The notes beneath the pieces were generated by a model that was not told where the DNA came from, ran no database searches, and was given only the letters and a program-made list of their open reading frames with translations. From a virus, in IMG/VR virus record IMGVR_UViG_3300036823_000383, positions 1 to 64,000 of that record: a DNA stretch of 64,000 bases; one strand, written 5' to 3'. This document shows, piece by piece, positions 7,412-27,921 of this stretch; position 1 is the stretch's first letter, and each line of letters opens with the position of its first letter. Made by a program: the position numbers and the translations under genes.

Positions 7412-8369
7412 ATCCGCGGCTCTCGCGCGCCCCGACGAGCTCACCGTCCAGGAGATCATCGCGCGCGTGGACAAGGTCAAAGAGGTCCAGAAGGCGGTGA
7501 TGCGCGATGGCGTGCACTTCGGTGTGGTGCCTGGCATCAGCAAGCCGTCCCTACTCAAGCCGGGGGCGGAAATCCTCGGAATGGCGTTCCGCCTGGCGGC
7601 GAAGTTCGTCATCACCGAGACCTTCGACGGCCCGCACCTCACCGTAAAAGCGGAATGCAATCTGATCCACGCGCCGACGGGAGCGTTCCTCGGTCAGGGC
7701 TTCGGGTCGTGCTCGACGCGCGAGAGCAAGTACGCCTGGCGCAAGGGAGAGCGCGTGTGTCCCGACTGCGGCAAGCCGGCCATCATGAAGAGCAAGTACG
7801 GCGATAACGGGGCGCAGCCGGGGTGGTTCTGCTTTGCGAAGAAGGACGGCTGCAACGCGAAGTTCGCCGCCAACGACGATCGGATCACCAGCCAAATCGC
7901 CGGACGGATCCCGAACGAGGACGTCGCCGACACCTACAACACCGTCCTGAAGATGGCGATCAAGCGGTCGCACGTCGCCGCGATCCTCTTCGTCACCTGC
8001 GCGTCCGAGATCTTCACCCAGGACGTCGAGGACATGCCCCGGGAGCAGGCCGACGATGCTGGCGACCGTCCGCAGGAGGGCGCGCGTCCCCAGGATGCAC
8101 GGCAGCAGTCCGCTCCGCGGGGACAGCAGCAGAAGACCGGTCAGCGCCCGAACAACGATGCCTCGGCGCGCGTCTCGAGGCTCATCGCGGCGTACGGCGA
8201 CGCGATCTCGACGGAGCAGCTCCAGGAGCTCAACAACGAGCGCCAAGAGCTGTGGGCCAGCCTTGGCGCGAATGACAAGCGGACGCTGAAGAGCGCTGCC
8301 GACGGCGCCGAGCAGCGCATCCGCAACTGGGACGGCCAGGGGGCGACGGGCACGGACGGGAAGCTCTGA
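7377..8369 (+). CDS. Conserved phage protein with zinc finger, possible recombination function
   Basis: 330 aa. The N-terminal region has a conserved-looking block (VMRDGVHFGVVPGISKPSLL) followed by GAEILGMAFRL. A zinc finger, CPDCGKP...CFAKKDGC, occupies about residues 122-160. Then comes a block around DTYNTVLKMAIKRSHVAA and FTQDVEDMP. The last 100 residues are Gln-rich and helical. This layout recurs in phage proteins encoded near recombination genes, and it directly precedes the SbcD/SbcC pair, so a role in ssDNA handling is plausible but unproven. ATG 7377 is preferred over ATG 7371 because GGAG lies at correct spacing for the second. Confidence 0.7.
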   Translation: METQSTALTTTESAALARPDELTVQEIIARVDKVKEVQKAVMRDGVHFGVVPGISKPSLLKPGAEILGMAFRLAAKFVITETFDGPHLTVKAECNLIHAPTGAFLGQGFGSCSTRESKYAWRKGERVCPDCGKPAIMKSKYGDNGAQPGWFCFAKKDGCNAKFAANDDRITSQIAGRIPNEDVADTYNTVLKMAIKRSHVAAILFVTCASEIFTQDVEDMPREQADDAGDRPQEGARPQDARQQSAPRGQQQKTGQRPNNDASARVSRLIAAYGDAISTEQLQELNNERQELWASLGANDKRTLKSAADGAEQRIRNWDGQGATGTDGKL

Positions 8370-8680
8370 TGCCGTCGTTCTTTGTGAAGCAACCGGACGG
8401 GCGGCTCGCTCGCTTCTCGTCCGTCGTCGACGACTTCGTGGCGTTCGACATGACGGCAGAGGAGGCCGAGCAGCTCATCCTGGACGAACTCGTCGAGGTT
8501 GCCCGGGCAACCGCCAAAGCAGCCGTTAAGCGCGGTATCGACGATGAGCTCCCGCGGCACCACGGGGTCTACGGCGATGGTCAGGCGCGCTGGCGCGACG
8601 CGCTCGAGACGGTGGAGTCGATCCACGGCAAGAACGCCAGGGCGCAGCGCGAGCGGCGACGCCTCGGGAGCGATTCGTGA
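8369..8680 (+). CDS. Small early protein upstream of sbcD-like gene
   Basis: 103 aa, polar and helical, with N-terminal FFVKQPDGRLARFSSVVDDF. Start ATG overlaps the preceding TGA (TGATG) and its stop overlaps the GTG of the SbcD-like gene. Unknown function; coupling suggests association with the recombination genes. Confidence 0.65.
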   Translation: MPSFFVKQPDGRLARFSSVVDDFVAFDMTAEEAEQLILDELVEVARATAKAAVKRGIDDELPRHHGVYGDGQARWRDALETVESIHGKNARAQRERRRLGSDS

Positions 8681-9852
8681 AGCTCGCGTTCGTCACCGAC
8701 AACCACTTCGACGAGGCGTCCCGCTTCGAGGAGACGATCCGCGTCCACGACTTCATCGCCGAGGACGCTGCGCGCCGGGGCTGCGAGGGAACGCTCCTCG
8801 GCGGGGATCTCTACGAGGGGAAGAGCAGCATCGCGGAGCGGAACGCGGCGGTCGCGTGGGTGCTGAAGATGGCGACGATCGGCCCCGTCGTCGGCGTCAA
8901 GGGCAACCACGAGATCGACGGGGACCTCGACGTCTTCAACCGGCTCCGTGGGCGCCATCCGATCCGGATCCACTCGGATCCCGACGTAGACCGCATCGGC
9001 GACGTGCTGATCGCGTGCGTGCCGTGGCCGCGGAAGGCCTCTCTGATCGCGAAGTACGGCCGGCTCGGGCTCGAGGAGAGCAACGCCAAGGCGACCGACT
9101 ACCTTCGTCAGGACTTCCGCGGGCTCGCCGAGGCTATGGACGCGCACGGGGACGCGCCGCGCATCGCGCTCGCGCACGTCATGATCGACCGAGCGACGAC
9201 GGACCACGACCAGCCGATCGTCGGCGCCGACATGGCCGTCTCGCTCGAGGAGCTCGGGCTGCTCCGAGCCCACTTCTACGCCTGCGGGCACGTGCACGCG
9301 CAGCAGGCGTTCCGCATCGGCGATGCCGATTGCATCTACGGGGGCGCGCCGAAGCACTGCAACTGGGGCGAGCCAGGCCCGAAGGGGTACGTGGTGCTCA
9401 ACGTCGAAGGCGGCCGAGTCGTCGGGTGGGAGCGGGTCGCGACCCCTGCGACGCCCATGGCGCTCGTCAACGCCACGTGGTCGGGCCCGTTGGGCCAGGA
9501 CGACGGCGGTCAGCCCCGGGGGTTCCGCGACATGAAGCGCGAGGCCTCCGTCTCCGGCGCCGAGGTCCGCGTGCGTTACGCCGTCGAAGTGAGCGACCGT
9601 GCGGTCGCCAGTCGCGCCGCCGAGGAGTATCGCGCCGAGCTCCTCGCGAACGGCGCAGTGAGCGTCATCCTCGAGGAAGAGGTCATCGCGACGACGCGCG
9701 CCCGCGTCCCCGAGATCACGAGCGCCCTGACGATCGCCGAGAAGCTCTCGACGCTTTGGGCTGCGCGCGGCGAGGAGATTCCGGCGCCGGCGCGCGAGCG
9801 GCTGTTCACGAAGGTGACTGCTCTGGAGGAGGAAGCCCGTGCTGCAGCTTGA
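8677..9852 (+). CDS. SbcD/Mre11-like nuclease (metallophosphoesterase)
   Basis: 391 aa with calcineurin-like phosphoesterase motifs in order: DNH (residues 7-9), GGDLYEG near 46, GNHEID near 76, the His of ALAHVMI near 169, and CGHVHAQ near 206. The C-terminal third is the partner-binding and capping region. SbcD proteins are Mn-dependent exo/endonucleases that act with SbcC on double-strand ends and hairpins. The SbcC-like gene follows with a 14-base overlap. Comparable phage pairs are T4 gp47/gp46 and T5 D12/D13. GTG 8677 overlaps the previous stop. Confidence 0.88.
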   Translation: MKLAFVTDNHFDEASRFEETIRVHDFIAEDAARRGCEGTLLGGDLYEGKSSIAERNAAVAWVLKMATIGPVVGVKGNHEIDGDLDVFNRLRGRHPIRIHSDPDVDRIGDVLIACVPWPRKASLIAKYGRLGLEESNAKATDYLRQDFRGLAEAMDAHGDAPRIALAHVMIDRATTDHDQPIVGADMAVSLEELGLLRAHFYACGHVHAQQAFRIGDADCIYGGAPKHCNWGEPGPKGYVVLNVEGGRVVGWERVATPATPMALVNATWSGPLGQDDGGQPRGFRDMKREASVSGAEVRVRYAVEVSDRAVASRAAEEYRAELLANGAVSVILEEEVIATTRARVPEITSALTIAEKLSTLWAARGEEIPAPARERLFTKVTALEEEARAAA

Positions 9853-12286
9853 GCGCGTCGAGTATCACAACGTCGGTCCGTTCTCGGACTTCGTCGTCGA
9901 TCTGTCGAAGTACGCCGACAAGCTCCTGATCGCCGTCTGCGGCGAAAACGGGGTGGGGAAGTCCTTCTTCCTCGAGTCCGCGTTCGCCGGTGCGATGTAT
10001 CGGACGATGCCCACTCAGGGCACGCTCGTGAAGCGAGCCACGGCGAAGGACTCGTGGATGCAATCCACGCTCGTGAACGGTGCTACGCGGACGTTTCGGC
10101 ATGTCCTCGACGGCGTGTCCGGCAAGTCCGAGGCCGTCGTCCTCGACGAGCATGGCATCTCGGTCCTGCCGGACTCGAAGGTGCGGTCGTTCGACGCTTG
10201 GGCGGCGAAGCACTGCCCGCCGCCGGAGGTCACGTTCGCCTCGCTCTTCGCCGCGCAGAACTCATCGGGGTTCCTCGGCGCGAAGCCCGCTGAGCGCAAG
10301 GCCATCCTGCTCCGGGTGCTCGGCATCGAGCGGCTCGAGCTCCTCGCCGCTCGCGCCCGCGAGCACGTCCGCGACACGCGGGTTGCGATCAACACGCTCA
10401 CCAGCCGGATCGACGACGAGAAGCGGCGCGCCACCGGCGATCCGGCCGAGATCGAGAAGGAATTAGACGCAGCTCGAGCCGGCGTCGCGACCGCTGAGCA
10501 GTCCCTTGTCGCCGCCCGTGCTGCTGTCGATGCCGCGCGAGCGGGCGCCGTGCTCATCGAGCAGCGGACCTGGGAGTTCAACGCCGTCCGAGACCGCCGT
10601 GAGGAACTCTTTACACGCCTTGCGGCGAAGCGCTCGGAGATCGCTGACATCGAGGAACGGATCGCCAACAACCGGAACATCCTCATCGACGCGGTGAAGA
10701 TCCGCGCGGCAGAGACTCGGCTCGTCGAACTCCGCGCCGAAGCTGCATCGCTCGAGACGTCGGTTCGGACGCACGAAGTCGCTCGCCTTACCGCGGTGCG
10801 GGAGCGCGACGGGCACGAGCGTTCGCGAGTCGCCGCAGAGGGCAGGGCAGCCGACGCGCGGGCTCGGCGCGCTCGGGCCGAGAAGCGGCTCGCGGATCGG
10901 TCGGTCATCGAGGAGGCCGCCCGCGTCCTCCCAGCCCGGCGTGAGGCGCTCGCGTCCGCGACGGAGGCCGTCGAAGCAGCTCGTCAGGCGCTCGAGGAGC
11001 TCCGCGGGCAGCGCCTCGACGGCGCCGCGGAGCGGATCGGTTCGCTCCGCCAGGGTCTGACGAACATCGCCGGGGATTGGGAACCGGACACGGGACTCGA
11101 TTACGCCAAGCAGGAAGCACTCAATCGCCTCTCACTCGATGACGATGCGGTCGAGGAGGCGAGAGAATTCCCAGCCCGGCTCCGAGCTGCCGAGCAGGCC
11201 GTCCGCGAGGCGGATGACGCCAGGGCGCACGAGGAAATCGCCGTCCGTCGGTTCGAGCCACTCGCGGCCCGCGTCAGCGATCTGGCTGCTGCCGAGCAGG
11301 ATACGAAGGACGCTGACGAGGCGGCGAACAAGGCCATCGAGGAGGCCGACGCCGCGAGAGTCGCCCGAGGACTGGCGGATGCGACGGCCGTGGACCGTGA
11401 GGAGCAGCGTGCCGCCGCGCAGGCCCGGGTGGTGGTGCTCGACCAGGAGATCGCCGTCGCCGTTCCGCTGGCCGCGCGAGTGACGAAGCTCGCCGAAGCA
11501 ACGGCGCGCATCGCGACCCACGAGCAACGTCTCGCGTCCGTCCGAGCGGAGCTCGCTCAGATCGATACCGACCTGACGGCCACACCCGAGCCGTCGGCGC
11601 CTCCCCCGATTCCCGACGTCGCTGCGTGCGCGTCAGCCGCGGACGCCGCGGAGAGCGAGGCGAGGCGCGCCGCGACGTCAGTCGCAGCCCTGGAGCAGCG
11701 TCTCGCGGACGCCCGCGCCTCCGAGGAGCGCCTCGCCGTTCTCACGAACGAACGAGGGGAGCACGACGACGAGCTCGCGGAGTGGACCCGGCTCGCCGCG
11801 GACATCGGGCGGGACGGCATCCAGGCGCTCGAGATCGACGCCGCCGGGCCCGAGCTCACGGAGATGGTGAACGACCTGCTCCATTCGTGCTTCGGCACTC
11901 GCTGGACGATATCCATCGAGACAACGCGGCTCTCGGCCGACGGCAAGCGTCAGCTCGAAGGCTGCGAGGTGATGGTGATCGACACGGTGTCCGGGCGCAC
12001 CGCCGAGGCGGCCGACTTCAGCGGCGGTGAGAAAGCCATTCTTGAGACGGCGACGAGTCTCGGCCTGATGATGCTCGCCTGCAAGCGGGCGGGGTCGAAG
12101 GACTGCACTCTCGTCCGTGACGAGTCCGGCGCGGCCGTCTCGAAGGGCAACGTGCGGGCCTACGTGGCGATGCTCCGGCGGGCCGCGGAGCGTGTCGGCG
12201 CGCGTCACGTCCTGCTCGTCTCGCACGTGCCCGAGGTGGTCGAGCTGTGCGACGACCGCATCAACATCCCGAGAGCGGCGGCGTGA
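9839..12286 (+). CDS. SbcC/Rad50-like ATPase
   Basis: 815 aa. Walker A GENGVGKS at residues 35-42, long Ala/Glu/Arg coiled coil from about 170 to 660, ABC signature FSGGEKA near 727, and a D-E pair after it (LVRDESGAA) as Walker B. It should drive DNA-end tethering and unwinding for the SbcD-like nuclease encoded just before. It is short for the family, and I see no CxxC zinc hook in the coiled coil (only a lone Cys in the DVAACASAAD segment). Dimerisation may therefore differ from Rad50. Confidence 0.85.
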   Translation: MLQLERVEYHNVGPFSDFVVDLSKYADKLLIAVCGENGVGKSFFLESAFAGAMYRTMPTQGTLVKRATAKDSWMQSTLVNGATRTFRHVLDGVSGKSEAVVLDEHGISVLPDSKVRSFDAWAAKHCPPPEVTFASLFAAQNSSGFLGAKPAERKAILLRVLGIERLELLAARAREHVRDTRVAINTLTSRIDDEKRRATGDPAEIEKELDAARAGVATAEQSLVAARAAVDAARAGAVLIEQRTWEFNAVRDRREELFTRLAAKRSEIADIEERIANNRNILIDAVKIRAAETRLVELRAEAASLETSVRTHEVARLTAVRERDGHERSRVAAEGRAADARARRARAEKRLADRSVIEEAARVLPARREALASATEAVEAARQALEELRGQRLDGAAERIGSLRQGLTNIAGDWEPDTGLDYAKQEALNRLSLDDDAVEEAREFPARLRAAEQAVREADDARAHEEIAVRRFEPLAARVSDLAAAEQDTKDADEAANKAIEEADAARVARGLADATAVDREEQRAAAQARVVVLDQEIAVAVPLAARVTKLAEATARIATHEQRLASVRAELAQIDTDLTATPEPSAPPPIPDVAACASAADAAESEARRAATSVAALEQRLADARASEERLAVLTNERGEHDDELAEWTRLAADIGRDGIQALEIDAAGPELTEMVNDLLHSCFGTRWTISIETTRLSADGKRQLEGCEVMVIDTVSGRTAEAADFSGGEKAILETATSLGLMMLACKRAGSKDCTLVRDESGAAVSKGNVRAYVAMLRRAAERVGARHVLLVSHVPEVVELCDDRINIPRAAA

Positions 12287-12659: not shown

Positions 12660-13033
12660 ACAAGAAGTGGCTCCTATCCAAGGACATCTACGGTCGCGAG
12701 CACGACCCGATCACGCGCGAGCGCGATCCCGAATCCGATCCGAAGCACCTCGCGTGGATCCGTTCGCTCCCGTGCGCTGTGCTCGCACATCCGTTGCCAG
12801 GCTCGACGCGGTGCCGCTTCCCGGTCGAGGCGCATCATCCGACGGGGGCAGGCCTGGCACTACGCGATGGGGACGCGGGCGCGATCCCGCTGTGCGGAAA
12901 ACATCATCGCGAGGAGCTGCACCTCTTCGCCGGATCGTTCCTCGGCTGGTCGAAAGAACGCATCCACGAGTGGGAGCGCGCGATGTCTGACTTGTACGAG
13001 CGCCTTGGGGTGCTGCGAAGGGAACTGCGATGA
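12656..13033 (+). CDS. HNH-type nuclease-like protein (DUF968-like)
   Basis: 125 aa. The pattern EAHHPTGAGL...AIPLCGKHHREELH (about residues 60-92) matches the H-H ... C-x2-HH metal-binding core of phage HNH proteins of the DUF968 type. Such proteins are nucleases or Holliday-junction-associated factors in lambdoid phages. ATG 12656 overlaps the previous stop (ATGA). The downstream helix (LGWSKERIHEWERA) completes the domain. Confidence 0.72.
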   Translation: MNKKWLLSKDIYGREHDPITRERDPESDPKHLAWIRSLPCAVLAHPLPGSTRCRFPVEAHHPTGAGLALRDGDAGAIPLCGKHHREELHLFAGSFLGWSKERIHEWERAMSDLYERLGVLRRELR

Positions 13034-13935
13034 GCGAACGAGCCGGCTACCTCCACGTCCACGACATGAGCGTGCACGTGTGGGAGGACACCGTCGAAGA
13101 GAAGGGGATCCGTGAAGTGTACGGTTCGATCCTCGCTGGCCTCCGAGGAAGGGGCTTCGCGACGAGACGCGACCCCGACGTGGAAAGGAGATGGCCCACG
13201 CTCGCCCCGTGGAATCACGTGGGCGAGAAGCGTGGCATCGAGTTCCACGCGAACACCTCGGGGCGGCACATCGAGCTGAGCTTCTTTCAAAACGTCAACC
13301 GCGGGCCGAACCCGAACTCCAACGGGGGCCGCTACGACTTCGACAAGTTCGCTCGACTGCCTCGGTACATGCGTCTGCACGCCGTCGCCGAAGTCGTGGC
13401 GGTGCTTGAGAAGCTGCGCCTGAACTATGGCTACGCGCTGAGCGCCGCACTCCGGAGCTCTGAGCCACTCGGGCGCGCCGTACTCCGCGTGCAGGAAGGT
13501 CGCCTCGACGAGGGCGATGCACTTGGCGCGTTCAACCGTTCGTGGTCGGCAGATCGTTTCGTCCGTGGCCCGGACGGCTGGCCCGCGAAGAGCGAGTTCA
13601 AGTCGTGGCCCTACTACGACCGAGACGGCATCGAGCTGCAGAGCGGTGACGTCCGGTACGCTCGCGTCGATGGGCGGCTCGTCCGTGGGACGGCGCACCC
13701 CGGCGTAAACGGGCAGTGGTTCCTCGTCTCACACGGCGAAAGCCTCGGCTCGCACCTGCACGCGAAGGCCCTCTTTCGGTGCGAGCACCCGGAGCTGGAG
13801 CCACGACGCCTCGTCCTGGGGCAGCCCGAGCGGCTTCATCGTGAGCTCGAAAAGCTGACCAAGGCGCGGTCGTATCGGCGAGTTGCCGCCGTGGGTGCGA
13901 CGCTCGCCCGCCTCGAATCGGGAGCGGCAGCGTGA
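13030..13935 (+). CDS. Conserved-looking early protein, unknown
   Basis: 301 aa, soluble. N-terminal two-thirds has the composition of a globular fold with a distinctive EFHANTSGRHIELSFFQNVN stretch near residue 71. A second region near 225-245 (VRGTAHPGVNGQWFLVSHGE) resembles a small beta barrel. It overlaps the HNH gene upstream and the methyltransferase downstream by four bases each. No family assigned. Confidence 0.65.
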   Translation: MSERAGYLHVHDMSVHVWEDTVEEKGIREVYGSILAGLRGRGFATRRDPDVERRWPTLAPWNHVGEKRGIEFHANTSGRHIELSFFQNVNRGPNPNSNGGRYDFDKFARLPRYMRLHAVAEVVAVLEKLRLNYGYALSAALRSSEPLGRAVLRVQEGRLDEGDALGAFNRSWSADRFVRGPDGWPAKSEFKSWPYYDRDGIELQSGDVRYARVDGRLVRGTAHPGVNGQWFLVSHGESLGSHLHAKALFRCEHPELEPRRLVLGQPERLHRELEKLTKARSYRRVAAVGATLARLESGAAA

Positions 13936-15521
13936 GACCTCCTGTCCTACGCGCCACGTTCGAGCCCACCGAGATGCTCGTCGACAACTTCGCCGGGGGC
14001 GGCGGGGCGTCCGAGGGTATCAAACGCGCCGTCCGCGCCCCGGACGTCGCGATCAATCACAACCCGGTCGCGCTCGCGATGCACCGCGCGAACCATCCAG
14101 AGACGCGGCACTACTGCGAAGACATCTGGGCAGCGGAGCCGCGCGAGGTGTGCTCCGGGCGTCGCGTCGGTTGGATCTGGTTCTCGCCCGACTGCACGTT
14201 CTTCTCAAAGGCTCGCGGAGCGAAGCCGATGCGGGACGCCGAGAGACGCGTGCGCGGGCTGGCATGGGTCGTTCCTCGCTGGATCCGAGCGGTGTGGCCT
14301 CGCGGGTTCCTGCTCGAAAACGTCGAAGAGTTCGAGGATTGGGGACCGCTCGGAGAAGATGGGCTTCCTGACAAGGGGCGCGCCGGGCGCACGTTCCGCG
14401 CGTGGGTCGCGCAGATCCGCGGGCTTGGGTACGCCGTCGAGTGGCGTCAACTCGTTTGCGCGGACTACGGCTCGCCGACTACTCGAAAGCGGCTGTACCT
14501 CATCGGTCGCCGCGACGGTCAGCCGATCGTTTGGCCGGAGCCGACGCACGGAAAGCATCGTCCGCAGCCGTGGCGCGCGACGTCCGAGATCATCGATTGG
14601 AGCCTCCCCGTCCGGTCGGTCTTCGGTCGCAAGAAACCGCTGGCGGAAGCGACGATGCGTCGAATCGCGAAGGGCCTGCAGCGCTACGTCGTCAATGCGC
14701 CGAACCCGTTCGTGATTCCCGTGACGCACCAGGGTGACTCCCGCGTGTATTCGATCGACGGTCCGTTGCCCACGGTGACGGGCGCGCACCGCGGCGAGCT
14801 TGCTCTGGTCAATCCGTTCGTCGTTCGGACCGGGCACTACTCCACCAAAACGGGCGCCGGCATCGAAGAAGGGCGCGGATGCGGCACCTTCCGGGGGCAG
14901 CCTCTCGACACGCCCCTCGGGACGATCTGCCGAACGAATGACAAGAACCTCGTCTGTCCGATTATCACGAAGCACTACGGCGACCCGGACCGAGTCGCTG
15001 GAGGCGGGACCGTAGTCGGGCACTCCGTCGATCGCCCGCTCGGGACGGTGACGTCACGGGACCACCACTCGCTGACAACGGCCTGGCTCACGAAGTACTA
15101 CGGCACGGCAACCGGCTCGTCGATGGACGCGCCGCTGCCCACGATCACTGCGAACGATCGCGGGGGCGGCCACCTCGCCGAGGTCCGGGCCTTCCTGATC
15201 AAGTACTACGGCGCGCAGTCCGGACAGCAGCAAAGCCTGTTCGACCCACTGCACACGGTGACGAGCAAGGCGCGCTTCGCCCTCGTGACGGTGTACGGGG
15301 AACTCTACGAGATCGTCGACATTGGGATGCGAATGCTGGCGCCTCGCGAGCTGTTCAGCGCGCAAGGCTTCGGCCCCGAGTACATCATCGATCTGGAGCA
15401 CAACGGGAAGCGGCTCACGAAAAGTGACCAGACAGAGCTCTGCGGCAACAGCCAGAGCCCCGACGTCGCCGAGGCACTCCTCGCGGCAAACACGGGACGG
15501 ACCAGGTCGGTGGCAGCGTGA
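13932..15521 (+). CDS. C5-cytosine DNA methyltransferase
   Basis: 529 aa. SAM-binding motif I DNFAGGGGASEGI (18-30), catalytic Cys88 in SPDCTFFS, motif VI LLENVEEF (128-135), motif VIII TTRKRLYLIGR (about 179-189), and C-terminal motif X (ELCGNSQSPDVAEA). Between VIII and X the target-recognition region holds about five degenerate repeats of the form D-x-PL-x-T(V/I)T ... TKYYG. These occur near DGPLPTVTG, DTPLGTICR, DRPLGTVTS, DAPLPTITA and DPLHTVTS. Probably protects phage DNA from host restriction. GTG 13932 is coupled to the previous gene, and its stop overlaps the Mom-like gene. Confidence 0.88.
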   Translation: MRPPVLRATFEPTEMLVDNFAGGGGASEGIKRAVRAPDVAINHNPVALAMHRANHPETRHYCEDIWAAEPREVCSGRRVGWIWFSPDCTFFSKARGAKPMRDAERRVRGLAWVVPRWIRAVWPRGFLLENVEEFEDWGPLGEDGLPDKGRAGRTFRAWVAQIRGLGYAVEWRQLVCADYGSPTTRKRLYLIGRRDGQPIVWPEPTHGKHRPQPWRATSEIIDWSLPVRSVFGRKKPLAEATMRRIAKGLQRYVVNAPNPFVIPVTHQGDSRVYSIDGPLPTVTGAHRGELALVNPFVVRTGHYSTKTGAGIEEGRGCGTFRGQPLDTPLGTICRTNDKNLVCPIITKHYGDPDRVAGGGTVVGHSVDRPLGTVTSRDHHSLTTAWLTKYYGTATGSSMDAPLPTITANDRGGGHLAEVRAFLIKYYGAQSGQQQSLFDPLHTVTSKARFALVTVYGELYEIVDIGMRMLAPRELFSAQGFGPEYIIDLEHNGKRLTKSDQTELCGNSQSPDVAEALLAANTGRTRSVAA

Positions 15522-16327
15522 TCGCCTCCGTCTGCCAGCGCTGGCGCGATCGCGCGGGCTCCTACCGCCCTGCGGGCGAGCCCATCCGGACGAGCGCGTA
15601 CGACGTTGCAGAGATCACGACGGACCGGGAGGCGCGCGCCTTCGTCGAGCGGCACCACTATAGCGGCTCGTACCCGGCGGCCCTGCGGCGCTTCGGGCTC
15701 TACCGTGGCGCCGAGCTCGTCGGCGTGGCCGTGCTGTCACAGCCCGCGAGCCAGGCCGCGCTCGATGCCGCGCTCCCATTCGCCGACGACGGCCGCGCGG
15801 AGCTCGGGCGCTTCGTGCTCCTCGACGAGGTCCCCGCGAACGGGGAGAGCTGGTTCCTTGCCCGCTGCTTCGAGCTGGCGCGCCGTGAGGGGTTCGTCGC
15901 CATCGTGGCGCACTCCGACCCCGAGCCGCGTCGCGCCGCCGGTGCCGTCGTCTTCGTCGGGCACATCGGCACGATCTACCAGGCGACGAACGCGACCTAC
16001 GTGGGGCGCACGGCGCGCCGCACGCGGCGGATGTTCGCCGACGGTACCGTTCTGTCGGACGCGGCGCTCTCGAAGCTCCGTAGTCGACGGAAGGGCTGGC
16101 GCTACGCGACGGAGCTCCTCATGGCGCACGGCGCGCCCCCGCCGGCTCGAGAGCTCATGCCCGGCGCGGACTGGCGTGCATGGGTGCGTGAGGCCGTAGA
16201 CGCCACCACGACCGCCTTCCGACACGGCGGCAACCATCGCTACGTGTGGGCGCTCGATCGCCGCCTGCGGCGCGCGCTTCCCGCATCGATGGCGTACCCG
16301 AAGTGGGAAAGCGCGGTGGCAGCGTGA
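15518..16327 (+). CDS. Mom-like DNA base modification protein
   Basis: 269 aa with the layout of the Mom family: FVERHHYSGSYP near residue 42, GLYRGAELVGVAVLSQP (60-76), ELGRFVLLD, and FVGHIGTIYQATNATYVGRT (146-165). In phage Mu, Mom uses a GNAT-like fold to convert adenine to N6-carbamoylmethyladenine and so block restriction. Coupling (GTGA) to a cytosine methyltransferase supports an anti-restriction role. No Com-like activator is seen nearby. Recognition is by motif memory rather than a search. Confidence 0.65.
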   Translation: MIASVCQRWRDRAGSYRPAGEPIRTSAYDVAEITTDREARAFVERHHYSGSYPAALRRFGLYRGAELVGVAVLSQPASQAALDAALPFADDGRAELGRFVLLDEVPANGESWFLARCFELARREGFVAIVAHSDPEPRRAAGAVVFVGHIGTIYQATNATYVGRTARRTRRMFADGTVLSDAALSKLRSRRKGWRYATELLMAHGAPPPARELMPGADWRAWVREAVDATTTAFRHGGNHRYVWALDRRLRRALPASMAYPKWESAVAA

Positions 16328-16347: not shown

Positions 16348-17142
16348 CTATTCCTCATCTTCCACGTCCGTCTTTTCGCGTTCAGCCGCGGCGGATTCGT
16401 CAGCCATTTTGTCTATGGCCTGCTTGAAACGCTGACCCGCCTTGACTTCCTCAGCAGTAAGCGGTCGCCCGGCCCTCTCCATTTCGAGAAGGTCGATCAT
16501 GGCATGGCGCTTGAACCTCTCCGTCTTTGTGGGGTCTCGCAAGAGCCTGAGAATCAAATCACCGTCGCTTTTCGGTGGCGTGCGCTCTCTTCGAAGCGCA
16601 CGAACGGTCTCGAGAATCTCCTTCAGCATGTCGTCCGTTTGCCGAGGAGGCGGCGCATCCGGTGCATCGCCCAGGTTGGCGAGAACATTCTCCAGTGTTG
16701 GCCACGCGCCGTTGAACAGGCGCTCCAGTCGAGCATCCGGCAATGGATCGGGAAGCTGCGAGTTGATGGTGCGGATCAACTCCAGCGTGCCTTCCTTCGT
16801 CGCCTTCTTGATCTGAAACTGCGTCAGCGGACCCGGCTCGAGGTCCTCGGTCTCCATGCGCACGAGGTACGGGCAAACAAGCGCGGCGTCGAACTGCTTC
16901 GCGAGTGCGCCCGCCTCGAAGAGCAACCACGGCTGCCGCTGGTTCTCGGGTGTTACGACGAGGATGCCGACCTTGGATTCCGCGAGCACCGTGGCGACCT
17001 GGTCGCTCCATCGCGCACCAGCGCGGATCCCTTCAGAGGACATCCATGGCTTCGCCGCCTGGAGAACGTCCCCGATCCACGTATGCAGCTCCTTCGCAAC
17101 CGTTTGGCTGCGCCCCTTCGACCAGCTGATGAAAACCCTCAT
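16348..17142 (-). CDS. TIR-domain protein
   Basis: 264 aa. Residues 1-140 form a TIR domain: MRVFISWSKGRS, the PWMSSEGIRAGARW loop, GILVVTPENQ, and PWLLFEAGALAK with Glu76 in the position of the catalytic Glu of NAD-cleaving bacterial TIRs. A conserved tail follows (GPLTQFQIKKA). The C-terminal 80 residues are helical and charged. It is the only minus-strand gene inside the early operon, so it is an independently expressed cargo gene, probably defensive. ATG 17142 is preferred since the fold begins there; no good Shine-Dalgarno is visible. Confidence 0.82.
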   Translation of the reverse strand: MRVFISWSKGRSQTVAKELHTWIGDVLQAAKPWMSSEGIRAGARWSDQVATVLAESKVGILVVTPENQRQPWLLFEAGALAKQFDAALVCPYLVRMETEDLEPGPLTQFQIKKATKEGTLELIRTINSQLPDPLPDARLERLFNGAWPTLENVLANLGDAPDAPPPRQTDDMLKEILETVRALRRERTPPKSDGDLILRLLRDPTKTERFKRHAMIDLLEMERAGRPLTAEEVKAGQRFKQAIDKMADESAAAEREKTDVEDEE

Positions 17143-17198
17143 TATCGCGGAGCGTACCGCGGACAGTTCCCCTCGCGAACACTTCCGGAGCAACCGGC

Positions 17199-19959: not shown

Positions 19960-20498
19960 CGAAGAGACTGGCGAAGGCCATCACGATGCTGAGCAAGCTG
20001 GACGAGGAGCAGACTGAGGAGCTGGCGAGAGCTCTACCGCCAGAAGCTCTCCTGTCGGCGCTTTGCGCTCTCGAGGGTTCACAGCGATCCACGTTGCTCG
20101 CGGAGTTACGCTGGGACGATTCCGGCGGGAAGTACTACAACAAAGCGCGCGTGTACGGCGCCGTCGCGGCTCAATACCGCGAGACTCTCGAACACCTGGC
20201 GAGGGCGGGCAGCGAGCGCGCCAAGGCGGCGTTGCTCTGGCGTGAATCCGAGCTGGGAGGCGTCCCTCGCGCGGAGCTCGAGGCGTTCGAAGCGCTCATG
20301 CGTTTGTCGCCGGCGGTTCCGGTACCGATGGTCCTCCACTGCCCGGAGTGCAGGGCCCGCCACGTCGACGAAGGCGAGTTCGCGACGAAGGTCCACCACA
20401 CCCAATCTTGCCAGTCGTGCGGGCTGACGTGGCGCCCGGCCGTCGTCGCCACGATCGGCGTGCAGTTTCTCCCAGGGTTCAAGAACGAGACCCCATGA
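19956..20498 (+). CDS. Helical protein with C-terminal zinc ribbon
   Basis: 180 aa. Residues 1-120 are helical; a zinc ribbon follows (HCPECRARHVDEG ... SCQSCGLTWRPA), ending in QFLPGF, a pattern I associate with phage zinc-ribbon proteins of unknown role. ATG 19956 overlaps the preceding frame's stop; its stop overlaps the start of the ATPase gene. Confidence 0.65.
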   Translation: MTKRLAKAITMLSKLDEEQTEELARALPPEALLSALCALEGSQRSTLLAELRWDDSGGKYYNKARVYGAVAAQYRETLEHLARAGSERAKAALLWRESELGGVPRAELEAFEALMRLSPAVPVPMVLHCPECRARHVDEGEFATKVHHTQSCQSCGLTWRPAVVATIGVQFLPGFKNETP

Positions 20499-22258
20499 AG
20501 ACGCTCCGAATCTCAGACACGTTCGCGCCGCCCGTGGAGTGGCTACAGCTCTCGACGGTGACGTACGGCGCCTCCGGCTCGGGCAAGAGCGCCTTCGGGC
20601 GCACGCTCGCGGAGGAGGCCCACGCCGCGGGTATGCGGTTCGTCGTGATCGACGTGAAGGGCGACTACTACGGCCTGAAGAGCAGCGCGGACGGGAAGCG
20701 CGAAGGGCTCCCTATCGTCGTGTTCGGCGGCGACCACGCGGACGTCCCGCTAGACATCAACGCGGGCGCGGTCTTCGGTGAGACGATCGCGCAGCTCGCG
20801 CAGAGCGGCATCCTGGACCTGGAGCACTTCCCGAAGGACAAGCGCCTCGGCTTCCTCGCGGACTTCTTCGCGGCGCTCTATCACCACAACCGCGAGCCGC
20901 TCCTGGTGCTCCTCGACGAGGCCCAGGACTACGCGCCCCAAACGCCTCGCGGGCAGCTCGGGAGGGACGCCGCGCGCTGCCTCTCCGCCGTCGAGGACCT
21001 CACGAAGATGGGACGGAAGCACGGCATCGGCCGAGTCTTCTTCACGCAGCGAGGGAGCGGGCTGAACAAGGAGGTCTCCGAGATCTGTGACGTCCTCGTG
21101 GCGTTCCGCACGCCGGGCACGCTCGACCAGGATCGGGTCAAGACGTGGCTCGGCTCGAGCGGCTCGAAGGCTCAGGTGCAGGAGGCCATGGCGCGGATTG
21201 ATGGGCTGCCGACAGGGACGGCGCTCTTCGCGAGCTCGCACCCGGCGGTGCGCCACTTCGGCGTGCATGCGGTCCGGATTCCCGTGACGTTCGACTCAAG
21301 CGCGACGCCGACGCTCGGGCGACGGAAGCAGGAGCCGACGAGGCTCGCGACGCCGGCGCTCGACGAACTCCGCGCGCGCCTCGCATCGACCATCGAGCGC
21401 GTTCAGGCGGATGATCCGAAGGCCCTCCGAGCGCGGATAGCGGAGCTAGAGAAGCGGTCGCGCCCCCACTTCGAATCGTGTCCGATGAACCCCGCCTGGT
21501 CGGGAACGGTCTGCAAGGGGCTGAACGACAAGTGCACGTGCGGCAAGCCTCCGGCGACGAAGGTCGAGCGCATCGAGGTACCGGTGCTCGGCGACGCTCC
21601 AGTCGGAGCTTTGGTCAGCAGCGCCGAGACCATGCGCATGCTCGGCGTCGACCTGGTCGAGACCGCCCGCGTCATTCGTGAGGCGCTCGATCGAGCACAA
21701 GGGGCCGCCATTGCTCCTCAGGGCGCGTTCCGTCCGGTCAGCGCGGGCTACGAGCCCCGGCCCCGGCTGGCCCATCCCGAGAGCGTTCATGCGGCGCCAC
21801 GAGCGCCGGCGCCATCGAAGGGAAAGCCGGCGCTCGACCGACGCATCCTGACGCTGCTTGCGCAGTACCAGGGTAAGGGCATGGACCAGGCGCGCCTCGC
21901 GCTGCACCTCGGTCTCCACCAGCGCAACAAGGGGCTCGCCAACACGCTCGGTCGACTGCGCACCGTCGGCTTCGTGCGCGGCCACGAGATCACGGAAACG
22001 GGGCTCACGGCGCTCGGCCCCTTCGCGGCGCTGCCGACGGGCCAACGACTCTTCGATTGGTGGTTCAACCAAAAGCTACGCCCGACGGAGGCTCGTGTGC
22101 TGCAGGCGATCTCCGAGCGCGACGACTGGACGCGCGAGGACCTCGCCTCGCGTCTCGGCGTGCACGAGCGCAACAAGGGGCTGGCGAACGCGATCGGGAA
22201 GCTGCGGTCGCTCCGACTCGTCGACGGGATGAGATTGTCAGAGGAACTCGTCGGATGA
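20495..22258 (+). CDS. HerA/FtsK-superfamily ATPase with two C-terminal winged helices
   Basis: 587 aa. Walker A GASGSGKS (25-32), Walker B LLVLLDEAQDY (about 138-148), and a sensor-like FFTQRGSGLN (about 178-187) define a DUF87/HerA-type motor. After a helical and Cys-containing linker, the last 150 residues contain two copies of one HTH-like unit: LALHLGLHQRNKGLANTLGR and LASRLGVHERNKGLANAIGK. HerA-type motors pump or translocate DNA with nucleases; here SbcCD is encoded in the same operon. A membrane pump role is not supported. Confidence 0.78.
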   Translation: MKTLRISDTFAPPVEWLQLSTVTYGASGSGKSAFGRTLAEEAHAAGMRFVVIDVKGDYYGLKSSADGKREGLPIVVFGGDHADVPLDINAGAVFGETIAQLAQSGILDLEHFPKDKRLGFLADFFAALYHHNREPLLVLLDEAQDYAPQTPRGQLGRDAARCLSAVEDLTKMGRKHGIGRVFFTQRGSGLNKEVSEICDVLVAFRTPGTLDQDRVKTWLGSSGSKAQVQEAMARIDGLPTGTALFASSHPAVRHFGVHAVRIPVTFDSSATPTLGRRKQEPTRLATPALDELRARLASTIERVQADDPKALRARIAELEKRSRPHFESCPMNPAWSGTVCKGLNDKCTCGKPPATKVERIEVPVLGDAPVGALVSSAETMRMLGVDLVETARVIREALDRAQGAAIAPQGAFRPVSAGYEPRPRLAHPESVHAAPRAPAPSKGKPALDRRILTLLAQYQGKGMDQARLALHLGLHQRNKGLANTLGRLRTVGFVRGHEITETGLTALGPFAALPTGQRLFDWWFNQKLRPTEARVLQAISERDDWTREDLASRLGVHERNKGLANAIGKLRSLRLVDGMRLSEELVG

Positions 22259-26443: not shown

Positions 26444-27871
26444 TCAGAGACCGCTGACGCGCGCGGGCGCGAGGCTCTTCGCCGGAGTGCCGCCGTTGCC
26501 GAGCTGCTTCTGAGAGTTGTCACCCCAGCAGTAGAAGTGCGCGTTGTTCAGGTCGCACGTCGCGCCGGGGAGCGCGGCCGGCGCCGCGACGAAGAGCGTA
26601 CCGGACCCGTGTCCTGAGACGGCAACGGGCGTCGTCGACAGGTGTGGGCTCGTCGGGCTGTTCGAATAGTCGAACCCGTCGCCGAGTTCGCCATCGTCAC
26701 CTAAGCCCCAGCACGACGCCGCTCCACTCGACGTGACCGCGCACGTCGTGAATTCGCTGGCGCTCATGTTCTGGACGCCGCTTGACAGACCCGACACCGA
26801 GACGGGCACGTTGCTGTCGTGATCGTTCATGCCGGATGTGTCGATGGTCCCGTTACCAAGCTCGCCGCCCGGGTTGTAACCCCAGCACTTCGCAGCGCCG
26901 CTCTGCACCGCACAGCTCCACCCGATCCCGACGGTTGCCCAGGTCACGCCGCTCGACATGCCGCTGACCGCGACGGCCGTCAGCGACGACGTGTTCGCCC
27001 CATTCCCGAGCCCTCCGTAAGAGCCGTCGCCCCAGCACTTCAGCGCGCCGCTGACGATCGCGCATGAATCCGCGCGACCCGTGGCCACCATCGTGGCGCC
27101 GGAGATACCAGATACCGCAACGGGTGCCGTTCGAGACGTCGTCGTACCGTCCCCGATCTGACCGAAGTAGTTGTCCCCCCAGCACTTGACGGCTCCCGTC
27201 GAGAGCGTTGCGCAAGTGGTGAAGTCGCCCGACGAGAGCTGCACGACGCCGCTGGTGAGCCCGGAAACGGATTGGCCGACGGTGCGACTGGTGAGAGTGC
27301 CGTCGCCGATCTGCCCGTCCGAGTTGTGTCCCCAGCATACGGCGGCCCCGTTCACGATGGCACACGCATGATAGGCGCCGCACACGACGCTCGTCGCGCC
27401 TCCGCTCGCGTTCGTCACCGGCACGGGAACGAGTGAGTCGAGAGTGCCTCCGTTCCCGAGCTGGCCGGCGGAGCCTTCGCCCCAGCACACGACGCCGCCG
27501 GAAGCGATCGCGCAACCGAAGTCACCGCCCTGGCAAATCTCCGTGTCGCCTACGAAGATCGATTGCGGAGCTGTTTCGACGGTACCGCCCGAGAAGGTGC
27601 CGATCGCCTTGAACGTGTGAGCACCGGGAGCGACCGTCGGGAATCCTACGCTCGTGTTCCACGGCGAACCGAACGACGTCGACATAAGAACGCCGTCCAC
27701 GTAGTAGTCGACCTTCGTGGCATCCGCCGACGCTGTGGCAGCGTACGAGGTGTTACCGCCGTGAAGGACAGCGCTTGCGCTGATCGAGCACGTCCCGGTG
27801 CACGCTGCCTGGCTCGGCGTGGCGTAAGCGAGAGCAATTGCTAACAGTGCGAATAATTTCAATGATTTCAT
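26444..27871 (-). CDS. Secreted RCC1-repeat beta-propeller protein
   Basis: 475 aa. Signal peptide MKSLKLFALLAIALAYATPS with cleavage near SQA, then an Ig-like domain (about 25-110; VDYYVDGVLMST) and seven RCC1-type repeats, each with a Cys-Trp-Gly followed by a G-Q/E-L-G-N/D-G motif (for example CWGHNSDGQIGDG). Seven repeats fit one complete seven-bladed propeller. ATG 27871 has AAAGGAGAAG upstream. It would be exported, so it may bind partners outside the cell. It lies in the accessory region left of the lysis genes. RCC1 proteins are rarely reported in phages. Confidence 0.82.
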   Translation of the reverse strand: MKSLKLFALLAIALAYATPSQAACTGTCSISASAVLHGGNTSYAATASADATKVDYYVDGVLMSTSFGSPWNTSVGFPTVAPGAHTFKAIGTFSGGTVETAPQSIFVGDTEICQGGDFGCAIASGGVVCWGEGSAGQLGNGGTLDSLVPVPVTNASGGATSVVCGAYHACAIVNGAAVCWGHNSDGQIGDGTLTSRTVGQSVSGLTSGVVQLSSGDFTTCATLSTGAVKCWGDNYFGQIGDGTTTSRTAPVAVSGISGATMVATGRADSCAIVSGALKCWGDGSYGGLGNGANTSSLTAVAVSGMSSGVTWATVGIGWSCAVQSGAAKCWGYNPGGELGNGTIDTSGMNDHDSNVPVSVSGLSSGVQNMSASEFTTCAVTSSGAASCWGLGDDGELGDGFDYSNSPTSPHLSTTPVAVSGHGSGTLFVAAPAALPGATCDLNNAHFYCWGDNSQKQLGNGGTPAKSLAPARVSGL

Positions 27872-27921
27872 TTCTTCTCCTTTGACCAATGAGCTGGTCG
27901 CTCAGGGCCGTCGGCCGACGG

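Follow-up and report, generated by a model that had tools for sequence, protein, structure and literature searches.

A candidate two-base anti-restriction operon in a virus with myovirus genes: a C5-cytosine methyltransferase gene overlapping a Mom-family gene

Phages that modify one base of their DNA are well known. The locus described here, in which the gene of a cytosine methyltransferase runs into that of a Mom-like protein, raises the question of whether a phage could mark two bases from a single operon, or whether two anti-restriction genes have come to lie side by side. The locus is part of a window of 64,000 bases, the whole stretch of DNA that was analysed, which comprises bases 1–64000 of a virus record of 73,433 bases; the other 9.4 kb was covered by a list of its open reading frames. 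The record carries myovirus genes for tail sheath, baseplate, portal and major head protein; a comparison of the capsid protein with a phage collection, which bears on phage lineage, returned no match. The best reading, which we hold at a probability of roughly 0.7 on the basis of sequence comparison and structural models, is that the pair forms a phage two-enzyme anti-restriction module that would modify two bases.

Two predicted enzymes and their overlapping genes

The first claim made from the sequence, that the second gene encodes a Mom-like protein of 269 aa, has gained firm ground. The Pfam profile PF25680 (Mom) covers residues 30–261 and scores 84.1 bits, its cut-off being 27.1, and phrog_1384 matches the protein with an E-value of 8e-30. 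An AlphaFold (AF2) model built from 30 aligned sequences reaches a pLDDT of 90.3. The sequence-only reading had named a fold unrelated to Mom as evidence against itself; when the fold was compared with the PDB by Foldseek, the best match was phage Mu Mom itself (8bv8; two chains, E 4.3e-11 and 4e-10, TM 0.59/0.70), followed by general GNAT enzymes at E 1e-5 and weaker. Residues H47, Y48, R98, N108, E110, D134, Y154, H236 and Y242 are identical in 31 of 31 aligned sequences, Mu Mom included. Position 111, a serine here, is Ser or Thr in all 31 rows and aligns to Ser124 of Mu, the residue changed in 8bv8, whose title calls this form of phage Mu Mom the 'inactive mutant S124A'. Taken together, the profile match, the modelled fold and the conserved active site make a strong case for assigning the 269-aa protein to the Mom family.

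The product of Mu Mom is N6-carbamoylmethyladenine in DNA. The mark made here would be unlike it if the GNAT-fold enzyme had shifted to another acyl donor or another target base, for which there is some room: identity to Mu Mom is only 25%, a C-terminal segment of about 30 residues has no counterpart in Mu Mom, and donor chemistry is not readable from a sequence. Against such a shift, the putative active-site residues of Mu are all kept, with the Ser124 position among them, and Mu Mom is far ahead of other GNATs as a fold match, so that we regard a changed donor or target as improbable. A review of jumbo phages (PMC7824862) describes Mom as an enzyme that moves an acyl group onto N6 of adenine.

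Two observations on the wider family may be added. In contigs L020 and L021 (6001–6790 in both), whose Mom sequences are identical, a frame change close to residue 37 interrupts the Mom relative. More distant Mom-like genes (L186, L188–L190, L194, L197 and L199, and L182–L185, L195, L196 and L198), from Chloroflexi and other genomes, lie near proteins which by eye resemble ParB-domain proteins in sequence.

The product of the first gene, 529 aa long, had been read as a cytosine methyltransferase, and family matches, catalytic motifs and fold all agree with this. It matches PF00145 with 81 bits against a cut-off of 22 and phrog_116 with an E-value of 1.2e-86. The methyltransferase motifs can be followed along the chain as I (FAGGGG), IV (SPDC, with Cys88), VI (ENV, 129–131), VIII (RKR, 185–187) and X (GN, 505–506), and Cys88, ENV 129–131, R185, R187 and GN 505–506 are invariant among 50 aligned sequences. 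The structural model, good in the catalytic domain and below pLDDT 50 over most of the length of the repeat region, has the fold of C5 enzymes, with Foldseek matches to M.HhaI, M.HaeIII, DNMT1 and MET1.

Among the best Foldseek matches is also the CmoX structure 8yf3, which brings up an enzyme that adds a carboxymethyl group, and hence a phage with two hypermodified bases. CmoX, however, requires an arginine at the position of Asn304 in M.HhaI (PMC12783734). The corresponding residue here is Asn506, which is invariant in the 50 relatives, and motif IV reads SPDC, not SPPC. CmoX chemistry was ruled out on the strength of Asn506, and a carboxymethylating enzyme is scarcely credible. Because Asn506 stands in place of the CmoX-type arginine, the 529-aa enzyme is expected to perform ordinary methylation of cytosine from SAM. 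A different variation is seen at L008:1876-3543 (+), where motif X of a C5 methyltransferase near a Mom gene reads GD instead of GN; the substrate or activity of that enzyme may differ.

The coordinates of the pair and of its immediate surroundings are given in Table 1.

Table 1. Predicted features at the methyltransferase–mom locus (positions in the window)
Feature	Coordinates	Strand	Evidence or remark
301-aa protein, function unassigned	13030..13935	+	phrog_7674, E 4.9e-27; gene before methyltransferase
C5-cytosine DNA methyltransferase, 529 aa	13932..15521	+	PF00145, phrog_116, invariant residues among 50 relatives, Foldseek
Five tandem PLxT(V/I)(T/C) repeats, residues 259–456 of methyltransferase	14706..15299	+	target-recognition region
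Repeat CGGTGGCAGCGTGA, methyltransferase end and mom start	15508..15521	+	exact 14-bp copy at mom end, 16314–16327
Mom-family DNA modification protein, 269 aa, GTG start, GNAT-like fold	15518..16327	+	PF25680, phrog_1384, AF2, PDB 8bv8, conservation

About five repeats had been noticed where the methyltransferase recognizes its target, and five were indeed found, far beyond chance. The motif PLxT(V/I)(T/C) occurs at residues 278, 328, 369, 401 and 439, while shuffles of the repeat region lead to an expectation of 0.013 copies, and the summed pairwise scores of the five units, each of about 35–45 aa, amount to 392 against a null maximum of 234. Across 85 methyltransferase relatives the motif count ranges from 1 to 7, as would be expected of a modular target-recognition region. 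The presence of several target-recognition domains in one methyltransferase chain is established for temperate phages of Bacillus (PMC12707154).

The two open reading frames overlap by four bases exactly as first described, sharing GTGA at 15518–15521. Overlaps of this kind are common along this string of genes and not peculiar to the pair: the genes at 8369–8680 and 8677–9852 share four bases too. On its own, the overlap with mom says little, because the preceding gene overlaps the start of the methyltransferase gene in the same way, by 4 nt. A comparison of the 301-aa product of that preceding gene with the 36 related Mom loci gave no hit at E ≤ 1e-5.

The exact 14-bp repeat CGGTGGCAGCGTGA bounds mom on both sides. 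Its last 10 bases recur at the start of the methyltransferase gene (13926–13935), and the window has 5 copies of this 10-mer where 0.29 would be expected. The genes for the 301-aa protein, the methyltransferase and Mom all end in -AA. The 14-bp repeat could be a recombination joint for gain and loss of mom, or it could simply reflect like C-terminal ends.

Other genes of the window deserve mention in their own right. Shortly upstream of the operon, on the same strand (+), lie genes for SbcD-like (8677–9852) and SbcC-like (9839–12286) nuclease subunits, matching phrog_100 and phrog_77. A HerA/FtsK-like ATPase is encoded at 20348–22258 (+), with PF01935 barely above its cut-off, a PADLOC assignment to HerA and a terminase-like PHROG match as well. 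The gene at 26444–27889 (-) is similar to PHROGs of the regulator of chromosome condensation (RCC1-like), which is unusual for a phage.

Recurrence of the pairing among Mom loci

Viral contigs scanned with the Mom protein yielded 36 relatives, which together with the window make 37 records. A PF00145 C5 methyltransferase is present in 16 of the 37, and in 12 of these 16 it lies no more than 3 kb from mom, on the same strand in every case (12/12). Random placement would lead to 3.6 close cases, and none of 200,000 simulations reached 12. When two records are left out, namely L017, which nearly duplicates L012, and L035, which is so short that closeness is certain, 10 of 14 are close against 2.2 expected with the same per-record figures. 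The coupling proposed from the sequence is therefore more than the accident of a single genome. An exact NTGA overlap of methyltransferase stop and mom start is found in the window and in L007, L012, L014 and L017, with GTG as the mom start codon in the window and ATG or TTG in the other four; the overlaps in these relatives support the mom start called here. The C5 enzymes paired with Mom belong to different subfamilies, of the SPDC type in L012, L014, L019, L033 and L165, of the SPPC type in L030, L032 and L034, and conventional in L125. Therefore, the pairings arose more than once.

The constant strand in all 12 close cases, the five exact overlaps and the recruitment of several C5 subfamilies beside mom weigh against the rival explanation that these are two independent anti-restriction genes in a common accessory region, which are gained and dropped separately and have no joint function or control. 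The same loci also speak for it. On a tree of 89 Mom proteins (65 labelled rows) the paired state is scattered and changes at least 10 times. The records of the closest Mom relatives, L002 and L003 (identity about 69%), contain no C5 methyltransferase, that of L003 being only 26.6 kb long, and the Mom loci L006 and L025 have an N6/N4 methyltransferase nearby instead. The methyltransferase family, for its part, usually occurs without Mom, with a Mom match within 4 kb in 1 of 80 relatives, and that a weak one. To this may be added the ordinary nature of 4-nt overlaps in this gene string and the repeat around mom, which could allow clean gain or loss. We place independent genes at slightly less than even odds; an anti-restriction role holds for this explanation as for the two-enzyme module, and our confidences in the two overlap.

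Over all Mom loci examined, some 115 in number, only about 15, the window included, have a C5 methyltransferase alongside. Among 80 bacterial and archaeal Mom loci there are 3 with a C5 enzyme inside the flank examined, of which one duplicates a viral locus, and distant phage Mom proteins in annotated records have other genes as neighbours. An N6/N4 methyltransferase as the usual partner of Mom was considered and rejected, as only 3 of the 37 records have one. The C5–Mom pairing is thus both recurrent and optional: the 12 close cases among 16 stand on one side, and the unpaired L002 and L003, the scattered tree and the mostly Mom-free methyltransferase relatives on the other. In a literature search, in which coverage of key Mom papers was incomplete, no report of a Mom gene next to a C5 methyltransferase gene came up. 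Both enzyme families are known; their recurrent side-by-side arrangement is apparently undescribed.

Control of mom and the proposed mechanism

The absence of a Com-like regulator near the pair, noted at the outset, extends further than the neighbourhood: PF10122 (Com) has no match in the 73,433-base record, nor in any of the 36 related records, while the same search finds Com in phage Mu. A masking hairpin at the mom start, as in Mu, was rejected, since folding of the start region is no better than that of shuffles (RNA fold z 0.52). Shared transcription with reinitiation at the overlap would be the simplest control of mom.

In the module that we favour, the first gene would provide a C5-cytosine methyltransferase that uses SAM and, through its tandem repeats, probably acts on several short sites. 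The second would provide a Mom-type GNAT-fold enzyme which places a bulky group, carbamoylmethyl in the case of Mu, on adenine N6 within short, degenerate target sequences. Both are probably translated from one message, in which the start of mom overlaps the stop of the methyltransferase gene, so that Mom is likely made by termination–reinitiation, keeping pace with the methyltransferase and needing no Com. Enzymes which read cytosine-containing sites would be stopped by the cytosine mark and many other endonucleases by the bulky group on adenine, and the two marks together would stop more host endonucleases than either alone. For this module we infer enzyme activity, the presence of both marks on virion DNA, the choice of sites, translational coupling and a benefit to the phage.

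A stronger form of the same idea would make Mom–C5 a recurrent, coordinately translated dual-base operon, in which the methyltransferase replaces Com as the factor that determines how much Mom is made, and perhaps also gives protection from a modification-dependent nuclease provoked by the other mark. We consider this doubtful.

Directly behind mom, and convergent with it, lies a gene for a TIR-domain protein (16348–17193, -; PF13676; PADLOC TIR-TM, E 1.6e-54), possibly a superinfection-exclusion or defence gene. It was dropped as a candidate third part of the module because none of 28 other Mom records has a TIR gene and viral contigs hold no close relatives of the protein.

If the two-enzyme module is real, a single operon that yields both methylated cytosine and a bulky adenine would amount to a counter-defence layered by base. 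A Com-free Mom system would likewise offer a test bed for the restraint of a toxic DNA modifier and for the donor needs of Mom, and the repeats of the methyltransferase make it possible to test whether one enzyme can serve several targets.

Relation to known systems

The nearest counterpart is Mom of phage Mu (8bv8, PF25680), a single phage gene for bulky adenine modification, which is alike in fold, active-site residues and size class. Compared with com-mom of Mu, the protein described here is diverged (25% identity) and extended at its C-terminus, and its record has no Com. Its gene stands behind a C5 methyltransferase gene, and its start lacks an unusually stable hairpin.

The methyltransferase is 45–47% identical over nearly its full length to phage C5 enzymes of phrog_116 such as those of Myxococcus phage Mx4 and Aeromonas phage vB_AsaM_LPM4. 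These relatives differ in that they are normally not beside a Mom gene and vary in repeat number. The multispecific C5 enzymes of Bacillus temperate phages are similar in being phage-borne, with serial elements where target recognition lies, those of the present enzyme being units of about 35–45 aa. With CmoX, the cytosine C5-carboxymethyltransferase of Synechococcus phage S-B43, the enzyme shares the C5 fold, but it lacks the carboxy-binding arginine and is expected to use ordinary SAM. Finally, Mom proteins of jumbo phages are fused to endonuclease domains (PMC7824862), which places the Mom family in phage conflict as is proposed here; in contrast to those fusions, the Mom protein of this locus is unfused, and its partner is a methyltransferase and not an endonuclease.
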